Shown: in pieces, positions 12,720-62,275 of the stretch | Layout of the letters: the number at the start of each line of letters is the position of its first letter | Position numbering within the stretch: the first letter of the stretch is position 1 | DNA from: a virus | Strand: one strand, 5' to 3' | IMG/VR virus record: IMGVR_UViG_3300023240_000018 | Location: 1 to 64,000 of that record | Length of the DNA: 64,000 nucleotides | The notes under the pieces: generated by a model | Told to the model about the DNA's origin: nothing | Database searches by the model: none | The model's input: only the letters and a program-made list of their open reading frames with translations | Translations under genes and position numbers: made by a program

Positions 12720-14441
12720 TCAGCCAAGAGGCTGCAGGAATAGTGGCTCGACTGAGACTCCGTGCTTAACTGAAACGATCAGCTGAGCCTCAGCGTACTC
12801 ACCCGACTCCGAATCATACCCATCGACATCGAAAATGTCATAGTTGTGAAGACCTTCGTAAAGCCTCGAGGAGTCCTTCGAAGTGATATTGAACGTTCCG
12901 ACCAGTCCGCTTATCGAACCTGAAACCTTCAGCAGAGGCCGGCCAGAGTCATCGGAGATGCCGAGCAGGATCGTGTCGTATTCCGGCTCAGACAGGAACG
13001 TAAATGACAGCGAGATAGCGCTCGACTGCTTGAGAGAGATCGGATCACCGACTTCACCAGCCCCGAGGACAGTGACATCAATCGCCAAGGTGTCGCGAGG
13101 GAGCCCGCCAACAATTGCCCCTGCAGTTCCAGCACCGTAAGATCCAGGAAGTGGCGTTATCCAAGGATCTCCAGCTAATCCTGCAGCAGAGAGGGCCGCC
13201 CCAGCCGAACCAGATTCAGTGTGATCACTAAGTTGTGTATCGAAGACCGCTTCAGCAAGTGCCTCGGCGCTCACCCCACCCGGCCCATTGGCAAGGCTGG
13301 CGGTGGTATAAACATTGGTAGAAATCATCGCGGCAAGGCTGGTCAGCACCGCCAACCGCTCCGCCGACAGTTTAGTGTCCAGCGATGCCTGCGTGGCGAA
13401 TCCGGAAACCATATCCGTGTTAGTTGTCGTCGTATCAACAAGCGCCACGCGTGGAATGATTGCCCCAGTATGTGTGACACCTGACAACACGATCCCAGTC
13501 GCTGACGTTATATTTGTCGGCGTCGCGAATCCTGTCGCCGTCACCAGCGATGTAAGGTCACTCCCCGTGCCAAACGCAGCCAGGACCGCCGCAGCATTGT
13601 GCGTCGAAAACCCGGTTGCAGTCGCCCAATCGCCTTGATTACTCTGTAGGTCGTCCGTGTCCTCCAGTATCGATGTGATGTTGGTTTGCATCGTCACCAA
13701 ATTCGACCATTGAGCGTCCGCCTTCAACGCGGCAACAATTGCCAAAGGTGAAGCATCCCCCTGGACCCAATCAGCAGCGATTGCATCAGCTAACGCCCCG
13801 ATGAAATCTGCCCCATCCCCGGTGTTGATTAAGGCCAAATCGATGACTCCAGCCAGTGTTGACCGCTCGCCGCTTGTTAACGCATATCCTGTTTTGTCAG
13901 AGTTGGTTCCTACGGTGACGGCAAACGTAAACGCTGACAAGGTCCGAGTCGTCGAAGTCCAAACATCAGATGCGGAATGAGTGCTCAATCCGTCTTGAAT
14001 CGCAGTCACGGCTGTAGTGTTCGGTGCGTCAACTAGATCCATTTCATCGCCCGCCACGGATGCACCTAATGCCACCGCTGACCCATCATAACCGCCGACA
14101 TAGATGTCCGTCGGTCCGGAATCACAATCTGCTAACTCAATCCACACTCTCACCCGCGTTCCTGCGGTTGCCAGCACAGCATCAGCAAGTCCAATTTTGT
14201 ACCACCCGTTGCCGACGTGATAAATGCCCCAGTCAGCATGTGACCCGCCTGCAGACATGGATGCTGGTGCTGGCGAGCCTGCAACTGTAACCGACACGAT
14301 GGCCGCATTGCCGATCTGGTATTTGATCGATAGGCCAGACGTGTTGTAAACGGCGTCTGTCTTTGGCAGGCCGTCGGCTACTGTCCAGAGTTTGCACTCA
14401 GTGTATTGATCGACGGACGCCGATTTGTAGACGTTGCTCAT
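12720..14441 (-). CDS. tail fibre/baseplate-like protein, 573 aa
   Basis: ATG at 14441 is chosen over an upstream ATG because AAGGATGGCCCC precedes it and it overlaps the previous stop as ATGA. The N-terminal ~150 residues are beta-rich (IVSVTVAGSPAPASMSAGGS, GNGWYKIGLADAVL). A long low-complexity Ala/Thr/Ser middle follows, with many short repeats of the form SALADAI / TATGF. The end (SLSFTFLSEPEYDTILLGIS) is again beta-rich. This matches phage tail-fibre or upper-baseplate proteins in style; no exact family. It is co-transcribed with the repeat adhesin. Confidence 0.7.
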   Translation of the reverse strand: MSNVYKSASVDQYTECKLWTVADGLPKTDAVYNTSGLSIKYQIGNAAIVSVTVAGSPAPASMSAGGSHADWGIYHVGNGWYKIGLADAVLATAGTRVRVWIELADCDSGPTDIYVGGYDGSAVALGASVAGDEMDLVDAPNTTAVTAIQDGLSTHSASDVWTSTTRTLSAFTFAVTVGTNSDKTGYALTSGERSTLAGVIDLALINTGDGADFIGALADAIAADWVQGDASPLAIVAALKADAQWSNLVTMQTNITSILEDTDDLQSNQGDWATATGFSTHNAAAVLAAFGTGSDLTSLVTATGFATPTNITSATGIVLSGVTHTGAIIPRVALVDTTTTNTDMVSGFATQASLDTKLSAERLAVLTSLAAMISTNVYTTASLANGPGGVSAEALAEAVFDTQLSDHTESGSAGAALSAAGLAGDPWITPLPGSYGAGTAGAIVGGLPRDTLAIDVTVLGAGEVGDPISLKQSSAISLSFTFLSEPEYDTILLGISDDSGRPLLKVSGSISGLVGTFNITSKDSSRLYEGLHNYDIFDVDGYDSESGEYAEAQLIVSVKHGVSVEPLFLQPLG

Positions 14442-16207
14442 GGGGCCATCCTTATGTTTCGCAGGTTGTTGTGTTGTGCGTTTTGTGCGGGGGCTCCTGA
14501 TGATGGAGGAACGTATGTTGCATCGTATCCACCGTCGGTTATCGTCCAATTGCGTGGGGCCGCTGTGAGGATATCCCTCTGAGTTTGGCCTGTGTCGTGG
14601 TATTTACTAGAACCTCCGCCCCACGTGACGCTGTTGTTTGCATTAGCGGATAGCCCTGCCAATAGTGCGTTATAATCTCCGGTGTTTATCGTATTGCCGG
14701 CCCACGCGATCCCAAAATTAGTTCCGCTGCTTGTGTCGATCAGCGGGAAACTTGTTAGGGAATTATCTCGCCATGCGCCTGAAAAATCAGTTCCGCTGCT
14801 TGTGTCAATCAATGGGAAACTTGTTAGGGAATTCCCGTCCCATGCGCTCTCAAAATCAGTTCCGCTGCTTGTGTCGATCAGCGGGAAACTTGTTAGGGAA
14901 TTCCCGAGCCACGCGCCTGAAAAATTAGTTCCGCTGCTTGTGTCAATCAATGGGAAACTTGTTAGGGAATTATTGAACCATGCGCTCCCAAAATTAGTTC
15001 CACTGCTTGTATCGATCAGCGGGAAACTTGTTAGGGAATTCCCGAGCCACGCGCCTGAAAAATTAGTTCCGCTGCTTGTGTCGATCAGCGGGAAACTTGT
15101 TAGGGAATTATTGAGCCATGCGTTCCCAAAATTAGTTCCGCTGCTTGTGTCGATCAGCGGGAAACTTGTTAGGGAATTATCTCGCCATGCGCCTGAAAAA
15201 TTAGTTCCTCTGCTTGTGTCAATCAATGGGAAACTTGTTAGCGAATTCCCTCGCCATGCGTTCCCAAAATCAGTTCCGCTGCTTGTGTCGATCAGCGGGA
15301 AACTTGTTAGGGAATTCCCGTCCCATGCGAATGAAAAAGTAGTTCCACTGCTTGTATCGATCAGCGGGAAACTTGTTAGCGAATTCTCTCGCCATGCGCC
15401 TGAAAAATTAGTTCCGCTGCTTGTGTCAATCAATGGGAAACTTGTTAGGGAATTATTGAGCCATGCGAATGAAAAATTAGTTCCGCTGCTTGTGTCAATC
15501 AATGGGAAACTTGTTAGCGAATTGTTGACCCATGAATATCGAAAATTAGTTCCGCTGCTTGTGTCAATCAATGGGAAACTTGTTAGCGAATTGTTGAACC
15601 ATGCGAATAGAAAATTAGTTCCGCTGCTTGTGTCGATCAGCGGGAAACTTGTTAGCGAATTCTCTCGCCATGCGAATGAAAAAATAGTTCCACTGCTTGT
15701 GTCAATCAATGGGAAACTTGTTAGCGAATTCCCTCGCCATGCGTTCCCAAAATTAGTTCCGCTGCTTGTGTCAATCAGCGGGAAACTTGTTAGCGAATTA
15801 TCTCGCCATGCGAATGAAAAATCAGTAACAAACCCAGTCACTGCTGTTGCGTGATCCGTTGCTGTGATGGTCAAATTGGAGCATCCGTAGAACGCATCCT
15901 CAAACGTGATCCACTTGTTCGTTCCCCAGTTGGCCAACTCCAAGACCTTCAGTTTATCGCCGCCATTATTGAATTTAATAGCGGGAAATCCACCGGTTGA
16001 TGACTCCGTGATGCTCAGAGTGTAATCTCCACCAGATGAATACGTGTGAGTCCAACTTGATCCGCTATTTATCGTCTCGTCCGCTCCACCGTCGCCCCAA
16101 TCGATGACAAAATCGTACGTCTCGCCCGAATCACCCGGCAGGGTGAATTGCGTGCTACTGGATGTGCCAGAGTTGGTTGTTCGGATCAATAGCTGGAATG
16201 CACTCAC
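14438..16207 (-). CDS. repeat adhesin with PKD-like domain (BspA/DUF285-type), 589 aa
   Basis: Residues ~20-70 have the PKD-type pattern WGDG and HTYSSGGDYTLSI, a surface beta-sandwich. LEDAF-like FEDAFYGCSNL follows, as in BspA/DUF285 leucine-rich repeat proteins. Residues 134-501 are sixteen perfect-length 23-residue units on the theme WxxNSLTSFPLIDTSSGTNF plus three residues. Variation is confined to positions 2-3 and 19-22. It likely binds a host-surface receptor as a fibre or decoration. It starts three bases from the gene at 16210. Confidence 0.8.
   Translation of the reverse strand: MSAFQLLIRTTNSGTSSSTQFTLPGDSGETYDFVIDWGDGGADETINSGSSWTHTYSSGGDYTLSITESSTGGFPAIKFNNGGDKLKVLELANWGTNKWITFEDAFYGCSNLTITATDHATAVTGFVTDFSFAWRDNSLTSFPLIDTSSGTNFGNAWRGNSLTSFPLIDTSSGTIFSFAWRENSLTSFPLIDTSSGTNFLFAWFNNSLTSFPLIDTSSGTNFRYSWVNNSLTSFPLIDTSSGTNFSFAWLNNSLTSFPLIDTSSGTNFSGAWRENSLTSFPLIDTSSGTTFSFAWDGNSLTSFPLIDTSSGTDFGNAWRGNSLTSFPLIDTSRGTNFSGAWRDNSLTSFPLIDTSSGTNFGNAWLNNSLTSFPLIDTSSGTNFSGAWLGNSLTSFPLIDTSSGTNFGSAWFNNSLTSFPLIDTSSGTNFSGAWLGNSLTSFPLIDTSSGTDFESAWDGNSLTSFPLIDTSSGTDFSGAWRDNSLTSFPLIDTSSGTNFGIAWAGNTINTGDYNALLAGLSANANNSVTWGGGSSKYHDTGQTQRDILTAAPRNWTITDGGYDATYVPPSSGAPAQNAQHNNLRNIRMAP
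14705..15808 (-). repeat. 16 tandem 69-bp coding repeats
   Basis: Sixteen head-to-tail 69-base units inside the adhesin gene, each nearly identical apart from two short variable windows. Identical units recur non-adjacently (for example the WLGNS and WRDNS types), a sign of shuffling or gene conversion rather than simple stepwise duplication. The array also creates a long antisense frame that is not a gene. Confidence 0.95.
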
Positions 16208-39893: not shown

Positions 39894-39992
39894 TCAGTCC
39901 GATTCTAACACACTGAAGTCAGCAGGATCGATCACGTCGACCGTGTACGTTGGGCCGGAGGCAAGGTAGGGGAGTTTGATTGTGGATGTCAT
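39894..39992 (-). CDS. short ORF, 32 aa, coupled to upstream gene
   Basis: ATG at 39992 overlaps the stop of the 769-residue gene as ATGA. Encodes MTSTIKLPYLASGPTYTVDV and an acidic end, with a normal codon pattern. Possibly a small tail or assembly factor. Confidence 0.45.
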   Translation of the reverse strand: MTSTIKLPYLASGPTYTVDVIDPADFSVLESD

Positions 39993-42298
39993 AAGGATAC
40001 GGCCTCGATTGTTTTCGGAGAAGAATTCATCACAGCGGTGGCGGTCTCTTTTGACAGGTCGTCGTAGTCCGGAGTGCTGAGATAGATCAGCGGAGTAGTC
40101 AGATTGTCGACGCCTGCACCGACAGAGATCACGACCGTGCGAGTGACAGAAGGCTGTGATTCCGTGTCGGACCCCTCACGAGTGAGATCAGCGACTAACT
40201 CGCCATCACGCCGCATCTTCGATCGGCTGACGGGCTCTGATTCCCACGGTGGGCTATCAGCGGCGCCATACTGTTTACCCCACGAATGCGGATAGTAATT
40301 CAGCTGTTGATTTATTCCGGCACCGAATTGCGAGTGGACAAACCTAAAGTCAAAATCTGCCTCTCCGACGTACGTTGGCCGTGCGTTGCGTGCATGGATC
40401 GGAAACTGCACTTGCATCTGTGAATCGAGGCCGAACCCGAAGCCTGAAATGATCGTATAGATGCCGTGCTTTGTGGGAATGCTGTCGCCGCTGCCTTTGC
40501 CGAGGAAACTAGCCCACTCATTGATCGCGGGCAGCGCTGGTAGTGGGAACAGCCACTCGGATTCGGGAACTTCTAACACGTTAAATGTGACCGACTGGTA
40601 AGAACTCTTTTCGTCGTCGTCAAGGTTCATGTCTGCGACGAAGTAATCGTCTAAATCCGCTGCGAAAAACAAATACTCGTTGCTGATGTTTGCGTAGTTG
40701 CCTTGCCAATTTCCATTCTCCAGCGCGTGCGCGTCGGCGAAATCCTTTGCTTCTTGCTGCGTTTGAAACGGGCCACCTAGTACCGGATTCCCAACAGTTG
40801 TCGATGCTTCGTTTTGATGAAAACGAAAATCAACCGCTTGGTAGAATTTGAATTGGTAAAAGCCGTAGCCGGATTCCGTCGGGTTGTTTTCGAGGCCCAC
40901 GCCAGTGATCGCCGCCGGAGGCATTCGGCCCCACGCATGCCGAGCGTCAGGCGGGAAAATGCACTCGCTTGTTACACGAGTGATGTTATTATGATTTACG
41001 GAAAACGGCGAGCCCCAAGATTGATCTGTTCGCTTTGACTGTACGGTTATCGGAGTCAACCTCGTTGATCGAGCGACGAACGTTTGCGGGTTTCCGTTAA
41101 CGATAAACACGCCGTTTTCGAACGCGGAACTAACATTCACTATCGACATGATTTCATCGACTCGCCCGACCGTAGGCGTGCCCCACGAATACGGAACATC
41201 AGGTGACCACGTGCATTGACGGTTGGCGTAACCGCCAAGAATTTCGTTTCGAAAGATGTTGTACACCGCAGTGGAAACGAATCCCACATCGTCTAACGTC
41301 GCCAGAATGAGACCTCCGCGGTAATTTGCTTGGCATCCGTCCGCCTCGTAGACGTCTGGAATTGTCGGGTCTCCATCAGGTGACTCATGCGACCCCAGAA
41401 CAATCAACCATCCCCGACTGGGGTGGCTAGGCCATGTCTCTGTGTGCCCAAAGTTACCGCCTGCTGTGGGGGCAAGATGCACAGGCGAGCCATCCGTGTA
41501 CACCAATTCGGACTGCGGAAACTCATCTAGCTTGATTGGAGCGTATCCGATCGTGGAGTTGTACTTCCGCACAAACCAGACTGTTGGTGTGTAGGTGAAT
41601 CCAGCCGGGGAAACCTTGCTCAGCGTAATCGGCAGTCGTTCCTGCGTGTCGTACATAAACCCCACAGTCGACGGATTAGGTGCAACGGGCAGGCTGTCGA
41701 ATGTCCAGTGCTCGTCAGGCCCAGTGTTGTAAGCTTCCGACGTGTTGTCGATCGGTGCCCCGGTCACGACGTGTTCTGCGTTGCCGGAGATTCCGCCAGT
41801 AATGTAAGCGCCAAGCGATGCAATCGCCGCGGGCGGATACGCGACAACTCCGCTGAATGTGCGATTGAAGTAGCTTTTCGTGACGCTTGCACCAAGATTG
41901 CAGTCTGGCGGAAATTGAAACTCGCCGAACGTGATTGAAAAACTCGGTGGCGTGATGTATCGACCGTCGTCAAGAATTGCATCGGTTGAAACCGTGGAAA
42001 CGGTTTGGTCCGGCCATTCCAGAAGCGACGTGTATCGCAATGATCTTGAATTCGCGTTGAAGAATCCCACGCCCGTGTTTCCGCCCGGCCCGAATGACCG
42101 CGCGCCACCGGGCAGCGTCTTTGGCCCAGTCGGGTATCCGTCCAAAGCGACCGTGTAACTGCTGCCGAGCAGGTCAGCCAGCGGGTTTTCCGCCAGTTGG
42201 AAGTTCACAGCGTCGAACTCGAATATGCGTGGATCTTCTGTTCGCATCCACATTTGAAGGCAGTTTTTCACACCACAACAACATGACATCATCGGCAT
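39989..42298 (-). CDS. large tail/receptor-side protein, 769 aa
   Basis: Begins with a Cys cluster (MSCCCGVKNC) and then a beta-rich body (NPLADLLGSSYTVALDGYPT; WFVRKYNSTIGYAPIKLDEF). No repeat or catalytic motif. Position after hub and glycosyltransferase genes suggests a distal tail or receptor-binding component. Its ATG overlaps the previous stop as TGATG; a second ATG is three codons in. Confidence 0.6.
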   Translation of the reverse strand: MPMMSCCCGVKNCLQMWMRTEDPRIFEFDAVNFQLAENPLADLLGSSYTVALDGYPTGPKTLPGGARSFGPGGNTGVGFFNANSRSLRYTSLLEWPDQTVSTVSTDAILDDGRYITPPSFSITFGEFQFPPDCNLGASVTKSYFNRTFSGVVAYPPAAIASLGAYITGGISGNAEHVVTGAPIDNTSEAYNTGPDEHWTFDSLPVAPNPSTVGFMYDTQERLPITLSKVSPAGFTYTPTVWFVRKYNSTIGYAPIKLDEFPQSELVYTDGSPVHLAPTAGGNFGHTETWPSHPSRGWLIVLGSHESPDGDPTIPDVYEADGCQANYRGGLILATLDDVGFVSTAVYNIFRNEILGGYANRQCTWSPDVPYSWGTPTVGRVDEIMSIVNVSSAFENGVFIVNGNPQTFVARSTRLTPITVQSKRTDQSWGSPFSVNHNNITRVTSECIFPPDARHAWGRMPPAAITGVGLENNPTESGYGFYQFKFYQAVDFRFHQNEASTTVGNPVLGGPFQTQQEAKDFADAHALENGNWQGNYANISNEYLFFAADLDDYFVADMNLDDDEKSSYQSVTFNVLEVPESEWLFPLPALPAINEWASFLGKGSGDSIPTKHGIYTIISGFGFGLDSQMQVQFPIHARNARPTYVGEADFDFRFVHSQFGAGINQQLNYYPHSWGKQYGAADSPPWESEPVSRSKMRRDGELVADLTREGSDTESQPSVTRTVVISVGAGVDNLTTPLIYLSTPDYDDLSKETATAVMNSSPKTIEAVSL

Positions 42299-43161
42299 CA
42301 GACAATCTCCAATTCAAACGCAGTTTCCATCGCGCCAAAATTCGGGGCGCACTTGCGGCATTTTTTGACAGCCGCAAGGTTGTTGAGAATCGTCTGATTG
42401 TTTCTCGCTCGACCCGTGGATCGCAGCGGAACGATCCCATGCGACAAACTGCCCTGATGCAGTCGCCGTCGCCCCAGAATCTCACGATGATCGATGATCT
42501 TGCGGCTGAACTTGCGAGCGCGTGCGTCGAATTCGAAATCGCCGCCGCTGAACATATTGCAGAATCCATTCAGCGATTGAAAGAAATCTAGCCTGACCAG
42601 CCGCATGGAATTGACGCCGCTGCCGTCTGGGACGCACGAAAAAATGCGGCCCGGAAATAGAAACGGGTCGTTCGCCAATCGTCTCCGCATGTCCTCGTCT
42701 GGGCCGTCGCAGAACTGTTCCATGCCTGAGGAAATCATCACCGAGCGTGACTGCTGAAGCACGCTGACTTGCCGCCACAACCGATCAGGCAGACTGATGT
42801 CATCGGCGTCATTCAATGCCAGATAATCCGTGCGGCAATGCCCATGTCTGACCAGTGCGTTCGTCAGTCGGTACGGGCCTCGTCCGGGTGGCTTGTTGGT
42901 GCGATAGCGGATAATTTCGGCCGACGTGTTTTGCAATGCAGGCAGCGGCGGAAACTCGCAACTGTCGGCGATCACGTGAATGATCGGCGTGCAATGATTC
43001 TGATGCAGCAGGCCTTCAACGCATTCCGCCAGCCACTGCGCGTCGCCTGACCAGAACGGAACGACAACGTCGACGGCGAACGGGTCTGACGGCGCAACAG
43101 GATCGGGCAGCGATCGTTGCTGCTGATTCCGGCGTAGAGTTTTGGGGCTTTGAATTTTCAT
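42298..43161 (-). CDS. GT2 family glycosyltransferase, 287 aa
   Basis: ATG at 43161 overlaps the previous stop (ATGA). VDVVVPFWSGDAQWLAECVE and HVIADSCE open the GT-A fold; YLALNDADDISLPDRLWRQ (NDADD 117-121) is the metal/nucleotide-sugar site. It probably transfers a sugar to a virion protein or host glycan. Finding it inside the tail gene run suggests modification of tail proteins. Confidence 0.85.
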   Translation of the reverse strand: MKIQSPKTLRRNQQQRSLPDPVAPSDPFAVDVVVPFWSGDAQWLAECVEGLLHQNHCTPIIHVIADSCEFPPLPALQNTSAEIIRYRTNKPPGRGPYRLTNALVRHGHCRTDYLALNDADDISLPDRLWRQVSVLQQSRSVMISSGMEQFCDGPDEDMRRRLANDPFLFPGRIFSCVPDGSGVNSMRLVRLDFFQSLNGFCNMFSGGDFEFDARARKFSRKIIDHREILGRRRLHQGSLSHGIVPLRSTGRARNNQTILNNLAAVKKCRKCAPNFGAMETAFELEIV

Positions 43162-44027
43162 TCGCTGATCGCTGGCCACTCCCACGCTGACGAATCGCAA
43201 TCGGTTTTGTACGGCACCCAGTAGCCCGCCTGAAATTCGATTCCGATCAGTGTGTTTGCCGCGATGTCGATCTCGCGAAAGTCGTTGACGACGGGCACGG
43301 TGATCAGAGCGTTTGCCGCGTCGCGAGTCTGAACCAGTCGACCGCAGGCGTTGCGTTTTAAGATCCACACGTCGGCCACTGCGAGGATTCCAATGTCGGC
43401 GTCTGTGACGGCGGTGGTTGCGTCAACGCCCAGCGTGGCCACTGTGGATGTGGCGGCTGTGATCGTGGTGACGAGCGGCACGCCGTCTACGCCAGCGCCG
43501 CAGATGATTACAGTGTAGTCGTCGATGTACCCCGACAGATCAACGGACGTCGTCAACTGATCACTGTCCGCGTCAATCGTGCCAGTCGCGTAGATGGCTG
43601 GCGACGCTGGCAAGTCGTCGACTAGGACCGCGAAGTGCCGTGACTCACCACGGGCAATCGCAGAGCAAATACCTGATTCGACTTCAGCAAGGTGAGTCAC
43701 GAACCCGCCCTCGCTCATTTCCCATGAACCCGCTTCGGCTGCGAGGCCAGTGCCAACGTCGGGGCTCACAGAGCACAAGACGTGTTGTGGAAGATGCCAA
43801 AGGCGCGACGCGCCCCAATCGCCGGCAGGAACAGGCGTCTCGCCATTTGCCAACCAGAAATTTCCGCCGGCTGTCGGTTTTGTGATTGTGTAGGTGTTCG
43901 TCTCCGCGACATACTCGACCAGTTCAACCACGCCATAGGCAGGCACGGTCTCCTCTGACGTGTTCTGCCAGTGAATGACTGAGCTGAAGTCTTGCGTCCG
44001 TAAAGACTGGAATGAGTTTCTATTCAT
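43158..44027 (-). CDS. tail-associated protein, 289 aa
   Basis: Starts MNRNSFQSLRTQDFSSVIHW. Beta-rich with Thr/Val runs (TITAATSTVATLGVDATTAV). Similar in style to phage tail structural proteins; no family. Overlaps the hub-like gene by eight bases. Confidence 0.6.
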   Translation of the reverse strand: MNRNSFQSLRTQDFSSVIHWQNTSEETVPAYGVVELVEYVAETNTYTITKPTAGGNFWLANGETPVPAGDWGASRLWHLPQHVLCSVSPDVGTGLAAEAGSWEMSEGGFVTHLAEVESGICSAIARGESRHFAVLVDDLPASPAIYATGTIDADSDQLTTSVDLSGYIDDYTVIICGAGVDGVPLVTTITAATSTVATLGVDATTAVTDADIGILAVADVWILKRNACGRLVQTRDAANALITVPVVNDFREIDIAANTLIGIEFQAGYWVPYKTDCDSSAWEWPAISE

Positions 44028-45672
44028 TGCCCTTCAATACTTTCTGCTTGGCGACCATGTCTCGCGTGAGATCGCTGCGCTGGCTTAGGACAAACATGTC
44101 CCGTTGCTTCTGCGGTTCCGTTCGAGTGAATGGGTCGGTGTTCATATTACGAGAAGCGACGGTGTGATGCCCCGGCTCGTTACTGTCGCCGTCAGTGATG
44201 ACATGCTTGATTTGCGAAATGAGACCATCCAGCCGAATATCGAACTTCGGGCGGTTGTACCAGCCAACATCACGGGCGGAATACGTGTACATTCCCAAAG
44301 CGTTCGCTGAATACTCAGCCGCTAGTGAGTCAAGGTTCACTCGGTTCGTGATTGTCCCTGTAACCACGTGGTCGGAGTCGTACGTGACAACTGTTCGGGC
44401 GAAATTAGTCGGGTCGTTAATTGAGTGGTATCCGAACCCTGACGAACTCACTTCCGTGTCCTTCATGTATGATGCCAGTTGGTTCGTCACTGAGTTGCGG
44501 AGCCGGAACGCCGATTCCAGATACAACTCTGACGGCGAGATTGTTTCCTCTACTGTGTTACTAACAAACACGGCTTCACTGAACGCAACCAGCCCGCGAT
44601 GCTCGTCGAACGTGAAGGGAAACCCAACCTCGTCATTGATTAGCGAAGGCAGCCGGACAGGCGCAGTTCTCTGCATGTGAATCCCATAGACTCGCGGTTG
44701 AGGATTGTACGGGACGCCGTTAATGAATTCCGTTTCCACAAGCTGTGGCAACATCGGAAGCACTTGGTTAATGCTGGAAATCAGCCCCGATCCGTCTGGC
44801 AAGTTCAATCCACCATCAGCAAATGTGGCGGGAATGTACCACCGAAAAACGGTCTTGATTGCGAGTTTGTATTCATCCGAGTCCTTGTCGTACGTTTTGA
44901 GAACGTTTGGCATTTCAGGGTTTTCAGTTTCCCATCCGGAAAGCGGAGCATAGCTCAGGTCCGCAATTGGCTTGATGTTGCCGTCAGTGTCCATCCCCAC
45001 CGCAATCATCTTGAATCGGGCCTGCGCAACTGACGGTGCAAAGCAGACTCTCACGTATTGTGGAGGAGTCGGCGGATCTAGCCCTTCAGCCGCTGCCATC
45101 AAATTTTCGGTAGGAAGCGATTCCCCAACCCCGACTTGAACAACCTTCACTGGGTCAGCGTTGAAGCCTAAGCAAATCCCGTACCCCCAGTCGGAGGTGA
45201 CTTGGTCGAGCAGAGTATCTGGTCGCATGCAATACACGTCGACCTCAGGATAGAAGTTAGTGGCGACGGCAGACACGTCAATGTTTGTTTCGCCGATGTC
45301 CGCAAGTAACTGGGTAACGATTTGACGGTGGCTGAATAGCGTTGCAGCAATGAGGTTGCCATTAGTATCTCGCTCATTGAAGTGGTAGCTCACAGACGGA
45401 TACCGCGACCATCGCCAGCGTCGATCCTGAAGCGTGATGCTCCCCTTGAAACCGCTTGGCGATATGTGAACGTTGGACTTGTCTGCCAAGCAATCTGGTA
45501 GTGTTTGCGTTTCAATGCCGTAGATGAACGTAACCGCACCGACCGCAGCCAGTGACGTGCTCTGCGGAACAATCTGCACGGAAACCTTGTCCGGCGCCAC
45601 GCCTCGGACCTGAGTGTAAATGGCACCCTTTGCTAGTAGGACGCCCGCGTATGTGACTGACCCCTGTGTCAT
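44020..45672 (-). CDS. baseplate-hub/tail-tip-like protein, 550 aa
   Basis: FKGSITLQDRRWRWSRYPSV near residue 75 and a beta-rich first half recall the tail-tip hub (gpD/Tal-type) fold, placed after the distal-tail-like protein as in siphoviruses. The second half is helical/beta mixed. No peptidase motif seen. Starts at a 4-base overlap with the preceding stop. Confidence 0.6.
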   Translation of the reverse strand: MTQGSVTYAGVLLAKGAIYTQVRGVAPDKVSVQIVPQSTSLAAVGAVTFIYGIETQTLPDCLADKSNVHISPSGFKGSITLQDRRWRWSRYPSVSYHFNERDTNGNLIAATLFSHRQIVTQLLADIGETNIDVSAVATNFYPEVDVYCMRPDTLLDQVTSDWGYGICLGFNADPVKVVQVGVGESLPTENLMAAAEGLDPPTPPQYVRVCFAPSVAQARFKMIAVGMDTDGNIKPIADLSYAPLSGWETENPEMPNVLKTYDKDSDEYKLAIKTVFRWYIPATFADGGLNLPDGSGLISSINQVLPMLPQLVETEFINGVPYNPQPRVYGIHMQRTAPVRLPSLINDEVGFPFTFDEHRGLVAFSEAVFVSNTVEETISPSELYLESAFRLRNSVTNQLASYMKDTEVSSSGFGYHSINDPTNFARTVVTYDSDHVVTGTITNRVNLDSLAAEYSANALGMYTYSARDVGWYNRPKFDIRLDGLISQIKHVITDGDSNEPGHHTVASRNMNTDPFTRTEPQKQRDMFVLSQRSDLTRDMVAKQKVLKGNE

Positions 45673-46421
45673 AGTTCTGGCACCTCGAATGAGCTCAGGA
45701 ACAGGAAGATCGCGGACTCGCCTTCATAGTGCCACTCAACAGAGTGCATGTCCTCGGTCTGAGAGTCGCCGTTCTTCGTGATGGATTTCGGTGCATGATA
45801 GGTGATTCGTGCTCGTTCCCCGTGCATGTTGACAAGGGGGAAGACAGGTTCATTGGCCTCAGGGAGCTCGTCAAGCAGGACAAGCATTCCCCGCTGAACG
45901 TACTTAATTGTTGTTGCCGCCGAAAGGGTTTGGTACTCCGGTGCTCCCGTCAGGCTAGGCATGTATCGCCACCGTGGCCCACCATTGCCAATTCTCAGCA
46001 CCTGCTCTTGGTACTTGATCACCTTAGCGGACAGTCGGTATTCAGCTTGAATGACGGCATAGAATGCACGCCGGTTCGACATCTCGGTGTGCATTTTCCA
46101 AGGACCGGTCATGTAGCCGAAGCTGACAACACGGACGCCTGAGAAAGATGCCGTGTCGCTCAAGGTGTGAGTGTTCCCATTTGCTGTGTACGACACCTCA
46201 CCGTAGTTCTGGGCACCATCTGCGTAAGCTAATTCCAGGTCACGCATGGCGCCATTCAGGCCTTCCGGTGAACCGTCATTGACCAAAGCGCCTGCGATCG
46301 TCCACCGATCAATCCTCGTGAGCGGCTCTTTGTTGGGCGACTCGATAATGCGGGAATCGATCTTGATGCCAACCTCGTCAACGGGATGCACCTTGTTGTT
46401 GAATACCAAGACGCCGCTCAT
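45669..46421 (-). CDS. distal-tail-like protein, 250 aa
   Basis: ATG at 46421 follows GGGAGAGATC and overlaps the previous stop (ATGA). Starts MSGVLVFNNKVHPVDEVGIK. Two beta domains (NTHTLSDTASFSGVRVVSFG; AIFLFLSSFEVPEL). Size and position between chaperone and hub genes fit a distal tail protein, but the family signature is weak. Confidence 0.55.
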   Translation of the reverse strand: MSGVLVFNNKVHPVDEVGIKIDSRIIESPNKEPLTRIDRWTIAGALVNDGSPEGLNGAMRDLELAYADGAQNYGEVSYTANGNTHTLSDTASFSGVRVVSFGYMTGPWKMHTEMSNRRAFYAVIQAEYRLSAKVIKYQEQVLRIGNGGPRWRYMPSLTGAPEYQTLSAATTIKYVQRGMLVLLDELPEANEPVFPLVNMHGERARITYHAPKSITKNGDSQTEDMHSVEWHYEGESAIFLFLSSFEVPEL

Positions 46422-47614
46422 GATCTCTCCCACACTTGAATGCTATTCGATGCTCTCTCAAGGCGTAGGATATTTTCCGATTCTGTCGTGACGCCGGGAG
46501 AGAATGTTTCCAGTGATGGTAGGTCATCAAATCCGGGGACTGTTATCGAAGCCGACAGCCCCCCGCGATCAGCGCTCATTGCCTCATTCTCTGCCTGAAT
46601 TAGCATCTCGGTGAATTCAGCTTCTCGACCTTCTGGTGCTATAATAAGGCTTCCCTGTGGCTTGGCAATTAACTCAGGACTAGCCGGCCCTTCCTGTTGA
46701 ATCTCGGCTGTGAGTTCGTTGTCTGCTGCCTGGACAAGTGCGACTGGAAGCGGCAGGACTTCATTGAATTCCGTGGGTTCAGTGGGTTCCGTTGGGGTTG
46801 CGTCTGTTGCTGATTCATCGATTCGGGGCTTATTGACATCTGCCAGTTCGGACTCTGGCTGACGTGAGTTCTCCTGCTCGACGGCACCGTCTCCGGTGAA
46901 CAAATCTGGGTCAGCAATATCTGCTTCCGGAGTAATAAAAACATCCGGGAGAGTGGGACTCGATACAGTAACTACATCTGCCAGTTCGGACTCTGGCTGA
47001 CGTGAGTTCTCCTGCTCGACGGCACCGTCTCCGGTGAACAAATCTGGGTCAGCAATATCTGCTTCCGGAGTAATAAAAACATCCGGGAGAGTGGGACTCG
47101 ATACAGTAACTACATCAGTGACTGATGCAGGGCTGGCAGATGCTGAAAGGACTTCACTCTGGTCTGGTACTGTTGGACTAATCGATTGACTCGTATCTGC
47201 TCCTGCTGTGATCGCCTCTGCATGTTGTGCCTCTGTGGTTAACGGTTCAGTTGATTCGGCTTCGTCTCCGATCGCAGAAATCAATTCCTCTGGTGGGGAA
47301 ACTAGCGTTGGCTGACTCTCCGGGACTTCGTTCGCGACAGCGGAATCTCCCTCCGTCGCTTCTTCTTGTGTGAAAATGGCCGAGTCCATGGCCGGTTCTG
47401 ACATCAGTGTCAAGCTCAACGAATCCTCCGTTAGCTCGTCAACATCCCTGACTTCACGTTTCTCTCCATCGGAGGAAACTATGTCTGTGCGTTCATCCAG
47501 TTCCTGATCACGCGAAAGACTAATGAGTCCCTGCATGTCATCATCCAGCATGGATGCCGGATCTTTATTTCCCTGGCGTGCCAGGAATTCCGAGATGAAT
47601 TTTCGGTAGTCCAT
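46418..47614 (-). CDS. acidic disordered protein with exact internal duplication, ~398 aa
   Basis: Very rich in Glu/Asp/Ser/Thr/Pro, no hydrophobic core until the ends. Contains an exact 46-residue duplication. ATG at 47614 (or TTG at 47623) lies inside the upstream gene and has no ribosome site, so translation must be coupled or reached by frameshift. Position just after a tail-chaperone-like gene is where a frameshifted chaperone or tape measure is usual. Confidence 0.6.
   Translation of the reverse strand: MDYRKFISEFLARQGNKDPASMLDDDMQGLISLSRDQELDERTDIVSSDGEKREVRDVDELTEDSLSLTLMSEPAMDSAIFTQEEATEGDSAVANEVPESQPTLVSPPEELISAIGDEAESTEPLTTEAQHAEAITAGADTSQSISPTVPDQSEVLSASASPASVTDVVTVSSPTLPDVFITPEADIADPDLFTGDGAVEQENSRQPESELADVVTVSSPTLPDVFITPEADIADPDLFTGDGAVEQENSRQPESELADVNKPRIDESATDATPTEPTEPTEFNEVLPLPVALVQAADNELTAEIQQEGPASPELIAKPQGSLIIAPEGREAEFTEMLIQAENEAMSADRGGLSASITVPGFDDLPSLETFSPGVTTESENILRLERASNSIQVWERS
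46838..47113 (-). repeat. exact 138-bp tandem duplication
   Basis: Two copies of a 138-base unit (46838-46975, 46976-47113) without a difference in the bases compared, in frame (46 codons). Absence of divergence points to a very recent event or an assembly artefact. Confidence 0.9.
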
Positions 47615-48176
47615 ACTGTTCAATCATATCGCCGATCAGTTTCCAATTCCTTCGAACGATCGGGCATTGCTTATGAAGGTCTGGCAGTCCAACGTGACGC
47701 CATTCCAGATAGTGCTTCCATGCCTGTTGATTTCTTGGACTCCACTCTGCTGGGCTGGAGTGGTGGCCTTTCTCGCATCCGGCTGTTGTTTCGCAAGAAG
47801 CCTTTGCGTGTCGCTTCCGCCTGATTGGCCCTCTCTCATTTAAGCAAACGTACCCTGTGTCTTGATTGAACCACCACGCTTTGCAAAGCTCGCAGGAGCG
47901 AAGTGAAAGAAGCGGATGTTTAAGTGCGATCTCAAGGCCGGATCTCAAATTGTTGAAATCATTCTCGTCATCCCACTCCAGCTGTCGCTTCGTGATTTCC
48001 GTTAGTTGTGTCTCGTCAGGCTCCCCCCCATCAAATCGGATTGGCGACCAGAGGATGTCATCGATTCCCCACCAGTCTTCAAGCCTATGAAGCGCCTCGA
48101 GCTTCAGGCGGTCAACCCCCAGCAATGGCCGAAAGCGAAACCCCTGAAACTCTTCGGTGTAGCCGTCATCGATCAT
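47565..48176 (-). CDS. tail-assembly-chaperone-like protein, 203 aa
   Basis: First half FRPLLGVDRLKLEALHRLED and helical; second half Cys-containing (SCELCKAWWFNQDTGYVCLN) that may bind zinc. Directly follows the tail-tube gene (ATGA) and overlaps the acidic protein by ~50 bases, the position of phage tail chaperones. Inverted repeat CCTGGC-AC-GCCAGG lies at the overlap. Confidence 0.55.
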   Translation of the reverse strand: MIDDGYTEEFQGFRFRPLLGVDRLKLEALHRLEDWWGIDDILWSPIRFDGGEPDETQLTEITKRQLEWDDENDFNNLRSGLEIALKHPLLSLRSCELCKAWWFNQDTGYVCLNERGPIRRKRHAKASCETTAGCEKGHHSSPAEWSPRNQQAWKHYLEWRHVGLPDLHKQCPIVRRNWKLIGDMIEQYGLPKIHLGIPGTPGK

Positions 48177-57439: not shown

Positions 57440-58645
57440 TTATGCAATCTGACCGTTATAGTGAGCAAGTGATGCGAGTTTTGTCACGAACTTCGGCTGA
57501 ATCCGCAGGTTGCCGAATGTGCTTGAACGCATGATGTACGCGCCCATGGCGTCTTCCCAAGTTGGGCCGAACACGTCGATCATTGGTTTTTCGCCGCCGC
57601 CGTTCATGGTGCCGAGATTGAAGAACTCCATGTGGTTGGCGACGAAGCCATAACCGATACCGGAGGGGCAGCCGCTGTCGGACTTGAAACTGCAACCGTC
57701 GATCTGCAGTGTCTGATACTCAGGAAACCCGTGATTTCCAGTTGCGGTCTGTGCGATCCGGAAGCGATCACCAAAGTGGTTTTCCAATCCGGGATACAAG
57801 TCAGGAGCAATCAGGAACGCGATTCTCGCATCTGGGCCAATTCCGGTGCGGTTGTGTAGCACGTTCAGCGCTTCACGGACCACGTCTTCGTTGTTGTCAA
57901 CCCAGAGGTTTGAGCCTGAACCCCATCTCTCCGCGTTGTAGTTCCACAAAACTGGACTCATCGCGTCATACTGGCTGTCGGCCTGACCGTACGGGAAGTC
58001 GTTGTCCGCACCTTGACCCTGATTCATGCGACTGGTGGAAGCAATCTCCGCAGTGCTCGTGCCGCCGAAGTAGCCCAAGTCAGTGCTGTGACCGCCATAA
58101 CTGTCAGACGGCAAGATGACCGCGTCGTCATTGTCGGCATCAGTTCCGCCACGGGCTGAGTTGTTGGCTCCAAGGCAGCTTTCGAAGCCCTGATACCCAT
58201 CCTGATAGGCAGTTGTGTTGCCATCGCGATACAGGCCTTCCACGATGTTTTCACACATTGACTGGCCCATCTGCTTCAGTTTCAACTCAAGCAGGTTGAT
58301 CAGTTGGGTGCTTCCTTGGTTTCGCTTGTAGTCAAGTTCTTTCAGCGAGTCGTCATTTTCGTATCCACGAACATCGACCTGAAGCTCTTCCAAGCCGTTG
58401 TGATCGCCGAAAGTCTTGCGGGTCGTGTTCTGGAACGTCCGAACCTTGGGCTTACGAACCAAGATTTTCCAGACACATGAGATGACTGAATCAGCATTGT
58501 ACTCAACGTTGCCAAACTGCTCCATCATGTCAAGCAGGACATGATTCCGCATCGTGAGGTCTGAGTAGCCACTCATGAACAAAGGCGCGGCAGCGCGAAC
58601 GTTCTGCAAAGCCGCCTGTGCGGTAACAGTCAGGAATCCAGGCAT
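57440..58645 (-). CDS. major capsid protein, 401 aa
   Basis: MPGFLTVTAQAALQNVRAAA, an N-arm, then NTTRKTFGDHNGLEELQVDV and QVRTFQN strands, a Tyr/Gly-rich insertion and a C-terminal IDVFGPTWEDAMGAYIMRSS. It follows the scaffolding gene and is close in size to HK97/P22-type coats. Highest-expressed virion gene expected. Confidence 0.75.
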   Translation of the reverse strand: MPGFLTVTAQAALQNVRAAAPLFMSGYSDLTMRNHVLLDMMEQFGNVEYNADSVISCVWKILVRKPKVRTFQNTTRKTFGDHNGLEELQVDVRGYENDDSLKELDYKRNQGSTQLINLLELKLKQMGQSMCENIVEGLYRDGNTTAYQDGYQGFESCLGANNSARGGTDADNDDAVILPSDSYGGHSTDLGYFGGTSTAEIASTSRMNQGQGADNDFPYGQADSQYDAMSPVLWNYNAERWGSGSNLWVDNNEDVVREALNVLHNRTGIGPDARIAFLIAPDLYPGLENHFGDRFRIAQTATGNHGFPEYQTLQIDGCSFKSDSGCPSGIGYGFVANHMEFFNLGTMNGGGEKPMIDVFGPTWEDAMGAYIMRSSTFGNLRIQPKFVTKLASLAHYNGQIA

Positions 58646-58679: not shown

Positions 58680-59768
58680 TTACTGCGGCAGAGGGAGTTG
58701 GCCTGCTTGCTGCAGGGCCATAATTCGGTCTAGTCTTGGGGGTCCGCTTGGCGTTCTGCCCAGCTGGGGAGAACCATTCGGTTGCTGTGCTGGATGCTGC
58801 GACAACCAGTTGCCATTTGCCGGCTGGGCTGCAGCTTGCTGCATGAATGTCTGTGGCTGAGGTGCCGGCTGAGGTACCGGCTGAGTCTGCGAAACAACAC
58901 CATTGACGGACAGGAGTTTCAACGTCTGATCGTGACGCTGAGACCGAGTCAGTGTTTTCCCCAAAAACTGAGCGTTGCTGTCGGCGACAGCCGCAAACTC
59001 ATTGTACGACTTGGCATACGGCGTAAACTGCTGGCGATCACCACCAACAAATAATTGTGATTCGTTCTGGTTGACCCAATTGTCGACCCGTGTGTCTTCT
59101 TTTTGCTGGCGATCAGCGGCCATTGTCGCCTTGAGTTCAGCAAGTTCCTTCTGAATCGGAGAAGCAAACTGCTGAAATGCCGTTTCGACATGTGGCGTAA
59201 TATATTTGTCGGGAGAGTCGACTAACTGCTGAGCCTGCTGTTGCCGATACTGGTGAACCGAATTCGCCTCGTCCGCAAAATGCTTGAGATTAGGATCGTT
59301 TGCGACCCAAACCCCGCCAGCACCCTGTTTCAATAAGCCCTGAGATTGCAGGGCCTTGGCGGTATCGCTCAGTGCGGGGGCGGCAGGAGTCGGAATAGGA
59401 GCGGGAGCGACGATTCCAGCATCTGGATTGCTGGCAGACTTCTGTGCCTCCCATTCCGACGTGATCTTGTTGGCGTTGTCGATCTGGCTAGCGATCTGGT
59501 CCAGAAACGTCTTTCGGTCCATCCCGGATGGAATGTCATAGCCCAACTGGCGAAACTCCGCAACAACTGCATCCTCAACGGGAGCGGTGGCAGGAACGGG
59601 AGCAACTGGGGCGGGGGCAGGAGCAAACTGCTGCTGAGTCGCGTCGACTACAGGTGCGGGCGCGACAGGCGAGACGCCATCACCGAATGGGGCATCTGCC
59701 GTCGGTTGACTCGCCATCACACTTGTGAGGCTGGGAGCGCTTAGTGGTGTGCCGTTGTTTGGTTCCAT
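58680..59768 (-). CDS. scaffolding protein, 362 aa
   Basis: Pro/Ala/Gln-rich and largely disordered at both ends (APAPAPVAPVPATAPVEDAV, QPVPQPAPQPQTFMQQ), with a helical centre (FQQFASPIQKELAELKATMA). This is typical of internal capsid scaffolds lying just before the coat gene. First gene of the structural operon. Confidence 0.7.
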   Translation of the reverse strand: MEPNNGTPLSAPSLTSVMASQPTADAPFGDGVSPVAPAPVVDATQQQFAPAPAPVAPVPATAPVEDAVVAEFRQLGYDIPSGMDRKTFLDQIASQIDNANKITSEWEAQKSASNPDAGIVAPAPIPTPAAPALSDTAKALQSQGLLKQGAGGVWVANDPNLKHFADEANSVHQYRQQQAQQLVDSPDKYITPHVETAFQQFASPIQKELAELKATMAADRQQKEDTRVDNWVNQNESQLFVGGDRQQFTPYAKSYNEFAAVADSNAQFLGKTLTRSQRHDQTLKLLSVNGVVSQTQPVPQPAPQPQTFMQQAAAQPANGNWLSQHPAQQPNGSPQLGRTPSGPPRLDRIMALQQAGQLPLPQ

Positions 59769-59898: not shown

Positions 59899-60084
59899 AT
59901 GACTGACGAAAAGCTACTGACGATCAAAGAAGTTCGATACATGCTCAAAAAACGTGGGTGCGAAAAAACAACAGCCACGATCACACGGTGGTGCCATAGC
60001 AAGACGTTTGTAAACGCGAGGCAGGTTGGCCACATCTGGTACATCCCGACAATTGACGTAGAGAAGGTGATCAACGGAGTCTGA
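59899..60084 (+). CDS. excisionase-like HTH protein, 61 aa
   Basis: ATG at 59899 follows AAGGAG. LLTIKEVRYMLKKRGCEKTT and ATITRWCHSKTF, then WYIPTIDVEKVI, the winged-helix pattern of MerR-like excisionases and recombination directionality factors. It faces the recombinase gene with two bases between; a directionality factor for that recombinase is a good hypothesis. Confidence 0.75.
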   Translation: MTDEKLLTIKEVRYMLKKRGCEKTTATITRWCHSKTFVNARQVGHIWYIPTIDVEKVINGV

Positions 60085-60086
60085 GG

Positions 60087-61544
60087 CTACGACGACATCA
60101 CATCTTCAAGGAATTCCATGTCCCGCCGCGCGTTCTTCACTGCAATGTAGGACCACTCGCGGTCGATGTACCCGTCCTTGTCCTTCGGACGAGTCTTGAA
60201 CCACTTTTTCAGGGCTTTCCTTTCAATGGCCGTGTGCCTCGCCTTGTTGTTCTTGATCCACGCACACGAATTAAATCGCGTTGCGGGAACAACTGGCCGG
60301 CCCAACCTAGCGGCGATCCTCTCCTCCATGAAATCCGCAACTTCGGTGATCTTCATTCCTTTGACATCCAGCAGTTCCCGGACCTCACGGAACTGTTCGA
60401 CCTTTATCAGATTTGGGTGGCACGTCCATCCATTTTCATTGTAGACAACATCCATCCATTTCGGGACGAACTTGTCGGTGAACCATTTCCCGCGCAGTGA
60501 TCTAAGGTGACTCATCGCCATTTTCGTTCGCCAACTAATATCGCGAGACTCCCACGCCGCCATCATTGACAGGATTTCAATGCTCTGCCGGCCCATTGGT
60601 GTTCGCGTGTCCAATCCACAGCCCGTGACTATGTGAATGTCTCGTTCAAGCAGAGACTTTATCGTGTTCGCCATGTCATGGACTGAGCGGAATATTCGGT
60701 CGAGTCGCGAGACGCAAACGCAGTCGTACGGTTGCAGCTGATCGTACATCTGCTTGCCAAGCGGCCGGTCCTTCCAATCAACGGAGAACGCCGACACCCC
60801 ATGATCAGAGAACAGGTCGGGGATTCGCTGATACCCAATCGCCACCATTCGGTCGATTGTTGCCTGAACCGTTGGTATTTGAGACGCGACGCTTTGGCCC
60901 CCAGTCGAGACGCGAGTGTAGCCCCACGCTCGACCGCATTTTTTCGGCAGCCCGTAGTCGAACGTGATGTTCGCGTCTCTAACCAGTGCGGCCAGCTTGG
61001 GGTTATTCGCCTGCAGTATTTTGGTTTTCGGCTGAGTAAGAAAACCGGCACTCTTCGCAGCAGCGACAGCCTTCCCTTCCCTGACCCTCGCTGAAATCAC
61101 GTCGCTCTTGAACTGCGCGAACGACGCGCACATGTTCGCCATCAGTTTGCCGGTTGGAGTTCGCATGTCGAACTGGTCGCGAACAAAGATTGGATTGATC
61201 TTGGCGGACTGGAACGACTTGCACATCCCGCTGAAGTCATGAACAGAACGGAACATTCTATCAATCGACAGACAAATGAAACTGTCTCCCGGTTTCATCG
61301 CCATCCACATCTTCTTGAAGCCCGGTCGCTCCATCGCAGGAATTTTCCACGCAGAGACACCCGGGTCAGCGAACACGCCGGGGTTGCGGTAGTTCGACTT
61401 CCTGCCGAGTTTGAGACCGTGAGTGGCTGCGTACTCACGGCAAGCCTTTGCTTGAGTGATAAGTGAGTCGCCTTCGCAGGCCTGCTCTTTCGTGGAAACG
61501 CGGACGTAGATGTATGTGACCATCAGGCTGGAGTTTTTTAACAT
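60087..61544 (-). CDS. tandem two-domain serine recombinase, 485 aa
   Basis: ATG at 61544 follows AGGAG. Domain 1 (residues ~10-160): YIYVRVSTKEQ with Ser17, DRMFRS 95-100, TPTGKLMANM. Domain 2 (~205-345): WGYTRVSTGGQ with Ser213, LDRIFRS 281-287, TPMGRQSIEI. Both keep the catalytic Ser and the Asp/Arg pattern of resolvase/invertase enzymes. A C-terminal ~140-residue part may contact DNA. Serine recombinases normally have one catalytic domain and work as tetramers; here a fused dimer is implied. Confidence 0.9.
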   Translation of the reverse strand: MLKNSSLMVTYIYVRVSTKEQACEGDSLITQAKACREYAATHGLKLGRKSNYRNPGVFADPGVSAWKIPAMERPGFKKMWMAMKPGDSFICLSIDRMFRSVHDFSGMCKSFQSAKINPIFVRDQFDMRTPTGKLMANMCASFAQFKSDVISARVREGKAVAAAKSAGFLTQPKTKILQANNPKLAALVRDANITFDYGLPKKCGRAWGYTRVSTGGQSVASQIPTVQATIDRMVAIGYQRIPDLFSDHGVSAFSVDWKDRPLGKQMYDQLQPYDCVCVSRLDRIFRSVHDMANTIKSLLERDIHIVTGCGLDTRTPMGRQSIEILSMMAAWESRDISWRTKMAMSHLRSLRGKWFTDKFVPKWMDVVYNENGWTCHPNLIKVEQFREVRELLDVKGMKITEVADFMEERIAARLGRPVVPATRFNSCAWIKNNKARHTAIERKALKKWFKTRPKDKDGYIDREWSYIAVKNARRDMEFLEDVMSS

Positions 61545-62275
61545 CAGGCGATCTCCTGAATTTTATCGCCCGCAGCTTTCAGGATGTCGCGAATTTGATC
61601 ACTGTACAGTTGCAGTGATTTCGGGATTTCGAAAAACCCAACCTGGTCGGCGAGGTCATTTATTTGAATTTGTAGCTTTCTTTTCGCCATTGACTTAGCA
61701 AATTTACCCGTGTGGCCAGCGACAATCCGCCCTTCGTTTTTCGCTGCTCTAAATTCGTCGGCAGTGACCTGCTCATCTGCCAGACGGTCTGCCGCCAACT
61801 CGTCAGCGATGGCCTGATCATACGCCAGTTGCTGGCGATCCTCCTCGATCCGCAGACGTTCAACCGCCCGCTCTTCATCGATTTCGAGCTGCTCGAACTG
61901 CTGCGCAACACGTAGCGCTTCGCGCTCAGCCTCCAGTTGCTTTCGCTCCTCTTCGAGCCGCAGACGCTCAGCCGCAAGCCCCTGAAAGTACTCTTCGAAA
62001 TAGGCATCGCTCATCAGCGACACCAGCTGCGTTTCCACTCGACACGAAGCCGCGTTGAGCCGGTTGAATCGTGCCTGCATCTTGGCGGCCTTTGCCACCT
62101 CGGCCAACCGTAGCTCTTGCTTATCAATCACTCCCAGCCACGAATCAATCGTCAATAACTCCTGACGTCGGAAAAACGAATCTGGCGACCGCAGCAACCA
62201 CGATTTTTCGAGCAGCAACTTTTCATGCTCGTTTGCGACATGCTCACGCTCAGTCTTTATTTCTTCAGCATTCAT
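61544..62275 (-). CDS. coiled-coil protein, 243 aa; related to 62324-62698
   Basis: Starts MNAEEIKTEREHVANEHEKL, then a long heptad coiled coil (AAERLRLEEERKQLEAEREA) and a basic GKFAKSMAKRKLQIQIND. Its first residues and stem resemble those of the next gene, so paralogues. Its stop overlaps the recombinase start (TGATG). Possible partner of the recombinase. Confidence 0.7.
   Translation of the reverse strand: MNAEEIKTEREHVANEHEKLLLEKSWLLRSPDSFFRRQELLTIDSWLGVIDKQELRLAEVAKAAKMQARFNRLNAASCRVETQLVSLMSDAYFEEYFQGLAAERLRLEEERKQLEAEREALRVAQQFEQLEIDEERAVERLRIEEDRQQLAYDQAIADELAADRLADEQVTADEFRAAKNEGRIVAGHTGKFAKSMAKRKLQIQINDLADQVGFFEIPKSLQLYSDQIRDILKAAGDKIQEIA

Follow-up and report, generated by a model that had tools for sequence, protein, structure and literature searches.

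Two catalytic domains in one chain: a family of tandem serine recombinases in uncultivated phages

Introduction

One open reading frame of an uncultivated phage raises the question of what a serine recombinase does with two catalytic domains in a single chain. Serine recombinases are widely used genome-engineering tools and a model for strand exchange by subunit rotation. In the known systems, four one-domain subunits form the synapse and cut, after which one half of the assembly turns about a flat interface (PMC9943657). A natural covalent pair of protomers that has persisted over deep divergence poses the question of which protomers can be joined when the others have to rotate, and it offers protomers that are pre-paired and asymmetric.

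The DNA analysed here (the window) is a stretch of 64,000 nucleotides that forms part of a 70,085-bp IMG/VR virus record. A sequence-only reading of the window had described a gene for two complete catalytic domains in one chain, with the catalytic serine, the DRxFRS motif and the TPxG region kept in both halves, and knew of no standard family of this layout. It took the protein for a natural fused dimer that might fix how two non-identical half-sites are paired. Many known proteins of the same architecture, or degenerate folding of one half in a model, were named there as findings that would speak against it.

The recombinase gene and its two halves

The gene and its parts are located as follows in the window.

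60087..61544, minus strand: gene of the serine recombinase with tandem catalytic domains (485 aa, ATG start, stop TAG, no internal stop)
61544..62275, minus strand: upstream gene of unassigned function, whose stop overlaps the recombinase start
61050..61520, minus strand: N catalytic domain, residues 9-165 (PF00239, 104 bits; helix E at 130-165)
61494-61496, 61260-61262 and 61107-61109, minus strand: key codons of the N half, Ser17, Asp95 and Lys146 (resolvase position 118)
60933..61049, minus strand: inter-domain linker, residues 166-204 (low pLDDT, evolving fast)
60492..60932, minus strand: C catalytic domain, residues 205-351 (PF00239, 93 bits)
60906-60908, 60699-60701 and 60549-60551, minus strand: key codons of the C half, Ser213, Asp282 and Glu332 (position 118)
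60090..60491, minus strand: C-terminal tail, residues 352-485 (beta hairpin and helices; presumed DNA-binding; no Pfam match)

The Pfam Resolvase model PF00239 matches the 485-aa ORF twice, at 104 and 93 bits against a curated cut-off of 23.3. The active-site residues are complete in both halves, with the equivalents of Ser, Arg8, Arg45, Arg68 and Arg71 that define the serine recombinase superfamily. The motifs lie where they had been placed, Ser17 in YVRVST and Ser213 in YTRVST, followed by DRMFRS and DRIFRS and by TPTG and TPMG. Alignment of the N half with the C half, which had been proposed as a check, gave 32% identity over 143 residues (E = 5e-17). The stop of the upstream gene and the start of the recombinase overlap, which fits a transcribed operon.

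A family of tandem recombinases

A search with the two halves led to an independent contig, L005, whose 45% identical homologue is full-length, carries both domains and has the same genes beside it. Wider searches brought to 24 the number of viral contigs in which a single ORF holds two domains, including 13 distinct full-length proteins besides that of the window, all in uncultivated phage contigs. Four members were scanned with Pfam, and each gave two Resolvase matches. Nine of the other proteins are 24-47% identical to the window protein in alignment A8, a range that leaves out the four tandem proteins found last, which are not in that alignment. Two DNA or peptide pattern scans of viral contigs gave no new members.

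There is next to no chance that the fusion is an artefact of assembly or annotation that joined two genes. The second half recurs, 100% identical, in a contig of another sample, and although that contig begins at the domain boundary (residue 201), the identical sequence, the 24 viral contigs of single-ORF layout and the 13 further distinct proteins show that the tandem ORF is no assembly accident.

Four contigs (L003, L010, L029 and L169) end inside or within 20 bp of the tandem gene, one of them exactly at the domain boundary; this could be chance or population heterogeneity at the locus. In another contig (L026, 3914-5007) an HNH-type gene and its neighbour are inserted directly before the recombinase. 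They are absent from the 88% identical L030, and the 1.1-kb length difference between the two contigs just upstream of the recombinase, considered as a possible att junction, corresponds to this insertion and is no such junction.

Outside the phage group, none of the best 80 loci of the genome collection has two domains in one ORF. A family profile was run against 1,331 sampled prokaryote genomes, drawn as four samples by phylum, and the top few candidates of each genome were scored; no tandem protein was found, the matches at E <= 1e-26 being single-domain only. As a positive control the profile search recovered 12 of 12 phage records in which the gene is present in full. No record in a phage collection of 50,697 covers 80% of the query, and the one plasmid record that nominally does so matches over 603 bp only. 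No tandem protein was found in the PDB, and literature searches gave no paper describing natural tandem resolvase domains in one protein. Across the genomes, phage records, structures and literature searched, the architecture was found in no known family, as the sequence-only reading had supposed, and the many known examples that would have spoken against it did not appear. The conserved, specialised tandem arrangement is undescribed as far as searched, while the catalytic unit itself is ordinary.

Gene neighbourhood and phage genome

Three genes beyond the end of the recombinase gene are of interest.

59899..60084, plus strand: small HTH_17 (excisionase-like) gene, 61 aa, convergent with the recombinase (weak HTH_17 match)
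58680..59768, minus strand: gene of a scaffold-like protein (conserved synteny)
57440..58645, minus strand: major capsid protein gene (conserved synteny)

Every distinct tandem member, and the truncated locus L010 as well, has an orthologue of the small HTH gene immediately past the recombinase on the opposite strand; none was found at five single-domain phage loci. The best Pfam match of its product is HTH_17, a weak one, and we propose that it is an accessory or directionality factor. The order recombinase, capsid, decoration-like gene is common to every distinct member tested, with the scaffold gene detected in most, and the capsid gene is present in eight further records too.

The first 1133 positions of the window and the end of the record (G000, 68956-70085) form an imperfect terminal direct repeat of about 1.1 kb with stretches 96% and 87% identical. 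One relative (G308) has a perfect direct repeat of 967 bp, and other relatives have repeats of 87-181 bp at or near the genome ends. Such end repeats make it probable that the genomes of about 65-70 kb are close to complete. A replication set of the phage's own is encoded in the window, with a primase/helicase, a clamp loader, a RecD-like helicase, ThyX, Dam and an ERCC4 nuclease. Its capsid protein and terminase have no match in the 50,697 phage records, and the tandem recombinase marks a phage group without a relative there by either sequence.

Two repeats were noted elsewhere in the window. A long tail-like protein (14438-16207, minus strand) holds about 15 near-identical 23-residue repeats (NSLTSFPLIDTSSGTNFxxAW), encoded by an array of 69-bp DNA units, and a perfect direct duplication of 143 bp lies at 46836-47116 within the ORF 46418-47623.

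Predicted structure

AlphaFold2 was run with an alignment of 50 sequences and gave a model with a pLDDT of 84.2 and a pTM of 0.52; with two sequences only, the pLDDT was 46 and the model useless. Both catalytic domains fold in the larger run, with pLDDT mostly 85-97 and a 36-residue helix E in each (residues 130-165 and 316-351), and the degenerate folding of one half that would have spoken against the sequence-only reading is not seen. As 40 of the 50 alignment rows are single-domain relatives, the predicted fold of each half is partly informed by single-domain proteins, and at this pTM the mutual orientation of the two catalytic domains in the model is unreliable. Foldseek against the PDB placed the Bxb1 integrase (9iu2) first, then the Tn3 and gamma-delta resolvases.

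A tail follows the C half only, where the model shows a beta hairpin and helices; the N half lacks one. In hhalign, tails of the window type bear a weak resemblance to the recombinase domain that is found in large serine recombinases (E 0.008, probability 5%). For the tails of the other subgroup hhalign gave no such similarity, and profiles built from the tails of each subgroup failed to match. The tail has at most a single cysteine pair (CHPN, NSCAW), against the four cysteines of a zinc ribbon, and the chain ends after about 135 tail residues.

Constraint and divergence of the two halves

The equivalents of Tyr6, Arg8, Ser10, Gln14, Gln19, Arg45, Arg68 and Arg71 are present in 14 of 14 N halves and 14 of 14 C halves. 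In resolvase, Ser10 is the nucleophile, and Arg8, Arg68 and probably Arg71 contact the scissile phosphate (PMC4499144; PMC9943657). Position 118 in helix E separates the halves completely: Lys or Arg in all 14 N halves, Glu in all 14 C halves. Of the single-domain relatives, 126 of 141 have Glu there and none has Lys or Arg. Asp67 matters for catalysis in resolvase, and its equivalent, kept in every C half, is found in the N halves of the window protein and L005 only; the N halves of the other 12 members have His, Thr or Ser, and because this residue is missing they may have little cleavage activity or none. In the window protein and L005 no residue of the N active site is missing. Arg125 is kept in all 14 N halves and in two of the 14 C halves, many of which have an Arg one position earlier.

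The dN/dS values for N and C halves are 0.033 and 0.030 for the closest pair, L026/L030, 0.108 and 0.104 for L023/L034, and 0.18 and 0.20 for window/L005; dS is saturated in the more distant pairs, so that their values are rough. The linker and the tail change faster than the catalytic domains. Between L026 and L030, synonymous divergence is about 0.35 in both catalytic domains and about 0.9 in the linker and tail. Judged by dN/dS, both halves are under equal purifying selection; in their residues they have specialised since duplication.

In a maximum-likelihood tree the N halves form one clade, the C halves another, and N and C halves stand together against 80 single-domain proteins (SH-aLRT 94, 91 and 95); an earlier sequence set gave the same three groupings with support of 86, 94 and 96. 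The tree is a quick one, and its single-domain relatives were gathered with the tandem family's own profile. Its topology suggests a single ancient internal duplication that preceded the diversification of the group.

How the tandem protein may work

The catalytic residues of both halves are equally constrained and the differences between them are fixed and reciprocal, which favours the halves being non-equivalent protomers of one synapse. We therefore lean, at slightly better than even, towards a site-specific serine recombinase of which one chain supplies two non-equivalent catalytic protomers, with the HTH protein as an accessory alongside. The N and C domains would be obligate, non-equivalent partners, and a synapse of four catalytic domains could then need two chains and not four. 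On this view the C-half tail would contact one half-site, and the product of the adjoining HTH gene would assist in positioning the other half-site or in setting the direction. Ser17 and Ser213 would carry out the cleavage, and the subunits would then rotate as they do in other serine recombinases. The two catalytic domains in one chain bear out part of the sequence-only reading; that they form a fused dimer on one site, or fix the pairing of non-identical half-sites, is conjecture. Strand exchange requires subunits on one site to rotate away from each other, and a covalent tether between them would restrain it; the linker might instead join subunits of two sites, in which case rotation would perhaps be unrestrained.

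The strongest rival, given the loss of Asp67, is that the N domain of most members does not cleave. It would be regulatory or architectural and control dimerisation or synapsis, and the C domains alone would cleave in an ordinary four-chain tetramer. We regard this as a serious but less probable account. It is consistent with the absence of the Asp67 equivalent from 12 of 14 N halves and no C half, with the charge reversal at position 118 and with the N half's want of a tail, and non-cleaving resolvase dimers at accessory sites do play architectural roles (PMC9943657). However, a non-cleaving domain should also lose Ser10, Arg8, Gln14, Arg45, Arg68 and Arg71, as it lost Asp67, and these are kept in every N half, at a dN/dS as low as that of the C half and with a complete N active site in the window protein and L005.

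The reading that one chain supplies two non-equivalent protomers can be drawn more tightly, and we give this version with much more reserve, as rather unlikely in all its parts. Here an obligate intramolecular N:C heterodimer would assemble into a two-chain tetramer, the charge pair at position 118 would enforce N:C pairing, the HTH protein would replace in trans the missing DNA-binding part of the N half, and each crossover site would be read by one tail and one HTH protein.

That the halves are ordinary interchangeable protomers, merely tethered so that fusion raises their local concentration, agrees with the completeness of both in the window protein, but is improbable in view of the fixed reciprocal differences in all members and the separate N and C clades.

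Possible biological role

For the biological role we find it plausible, if short of an even chance, that the protein is the integrase of a temperate phage and the HTH gene its recombination directionality factor (RDF). Serine integrases have small, diverse RDFs (PMC5814800); a recombinase that adjoins a small HTH_17 gene in all members resembles an integrase with its RDF, and Bxb1 leads the structural search. Against this, the best 80 genome-collection loci and the 1,331 sampled genomes showed no tandem recombinase, and no recognised repressor or partition gene is among the families found in the window. No attP or attB sites and no integrated prophages were found in these loci and genomes.

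We hold it somewhat less likely, although no prophage was seen, that the enzyme rearranges the phage genome internally, by inversion or by resolution of concatemers or multimers. The gene does lie among the head genes, and the 65-70 kb genomes that carry it were assembled with redundant ends. However, seven genomes or partial genomes contained no candidate pair of inverted-repeat crossover sites, and no inverted segment was seen between the close pair G307 and G314 among the first 15 alignments listed.

Two kinds of candidate site were set aside. Inverted repeats around the recombinase gene are short and unconvincing as crossover sites. Dispersed repeats of 55-85 bp in relatives were considered as recombination sites, and the G307 copies, when aligned, resemble terminators combined with ribosome-binding sites in the gaps that separate early genes. 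That genome holds at least eight such intergenic repeats of about 85 bp at 39973-46897.

Comparison with known serine recombinases

The best NCBIfam match, by domain similarity, is XisF, the excision recombinase of the fdxN element; its 102 bits lie below the curated cut-off of 375, and the protein is no XisF. Like the tandem gene, the cassette recombinases CcrA/CcrB and other adjacent pairs encode two different serine recombinase domains together, but CcrA and CcrB are separate proteins, whereas the tandem domains share one chain, and scores with the CcrA, CcrB and CcrC models fall far short of the cut-offs (for CcrB, 65 bits where 900 are required). Adjacent or overlapping pairs of small serine recombinase genes were also seen in Thermoplasmata and Methanomassiliicoccales genomes (L052, L070, L075, L099, L102 and L116). 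They are a possible unfused counterpart of the tandem protein, but in the tree their proteins fall outside both the N-half and the C-half groups.

A small serine recombinase has one catalytic domain and a small HTH DNA-binding domain in about 180-210 aa. The tandem protein has in each half the catalytic fold, active-site residues and long helix E of this class (gamma-delta and Tn3 resolvase, Gin, Hin), but it falls outside the resolvases and invertases, with two catalytic domains in 485 aa, an N half without a DNA-binding domain and a tail unlike the resolvase HTH. Large serine integrases are marked by a zinc ribbon with an embedded coiled coil (PMC3783163). To this class (Bxb1, phiC31 and TP901-1 integrases) the tandem protein is linked by its best structural match and by the weak likeness of window-type tails to the recombinase domain, and it departs from it in having neither the zinc-ribbon cysteines nor the coiled coil and in carrying a second catalytic domain in front.
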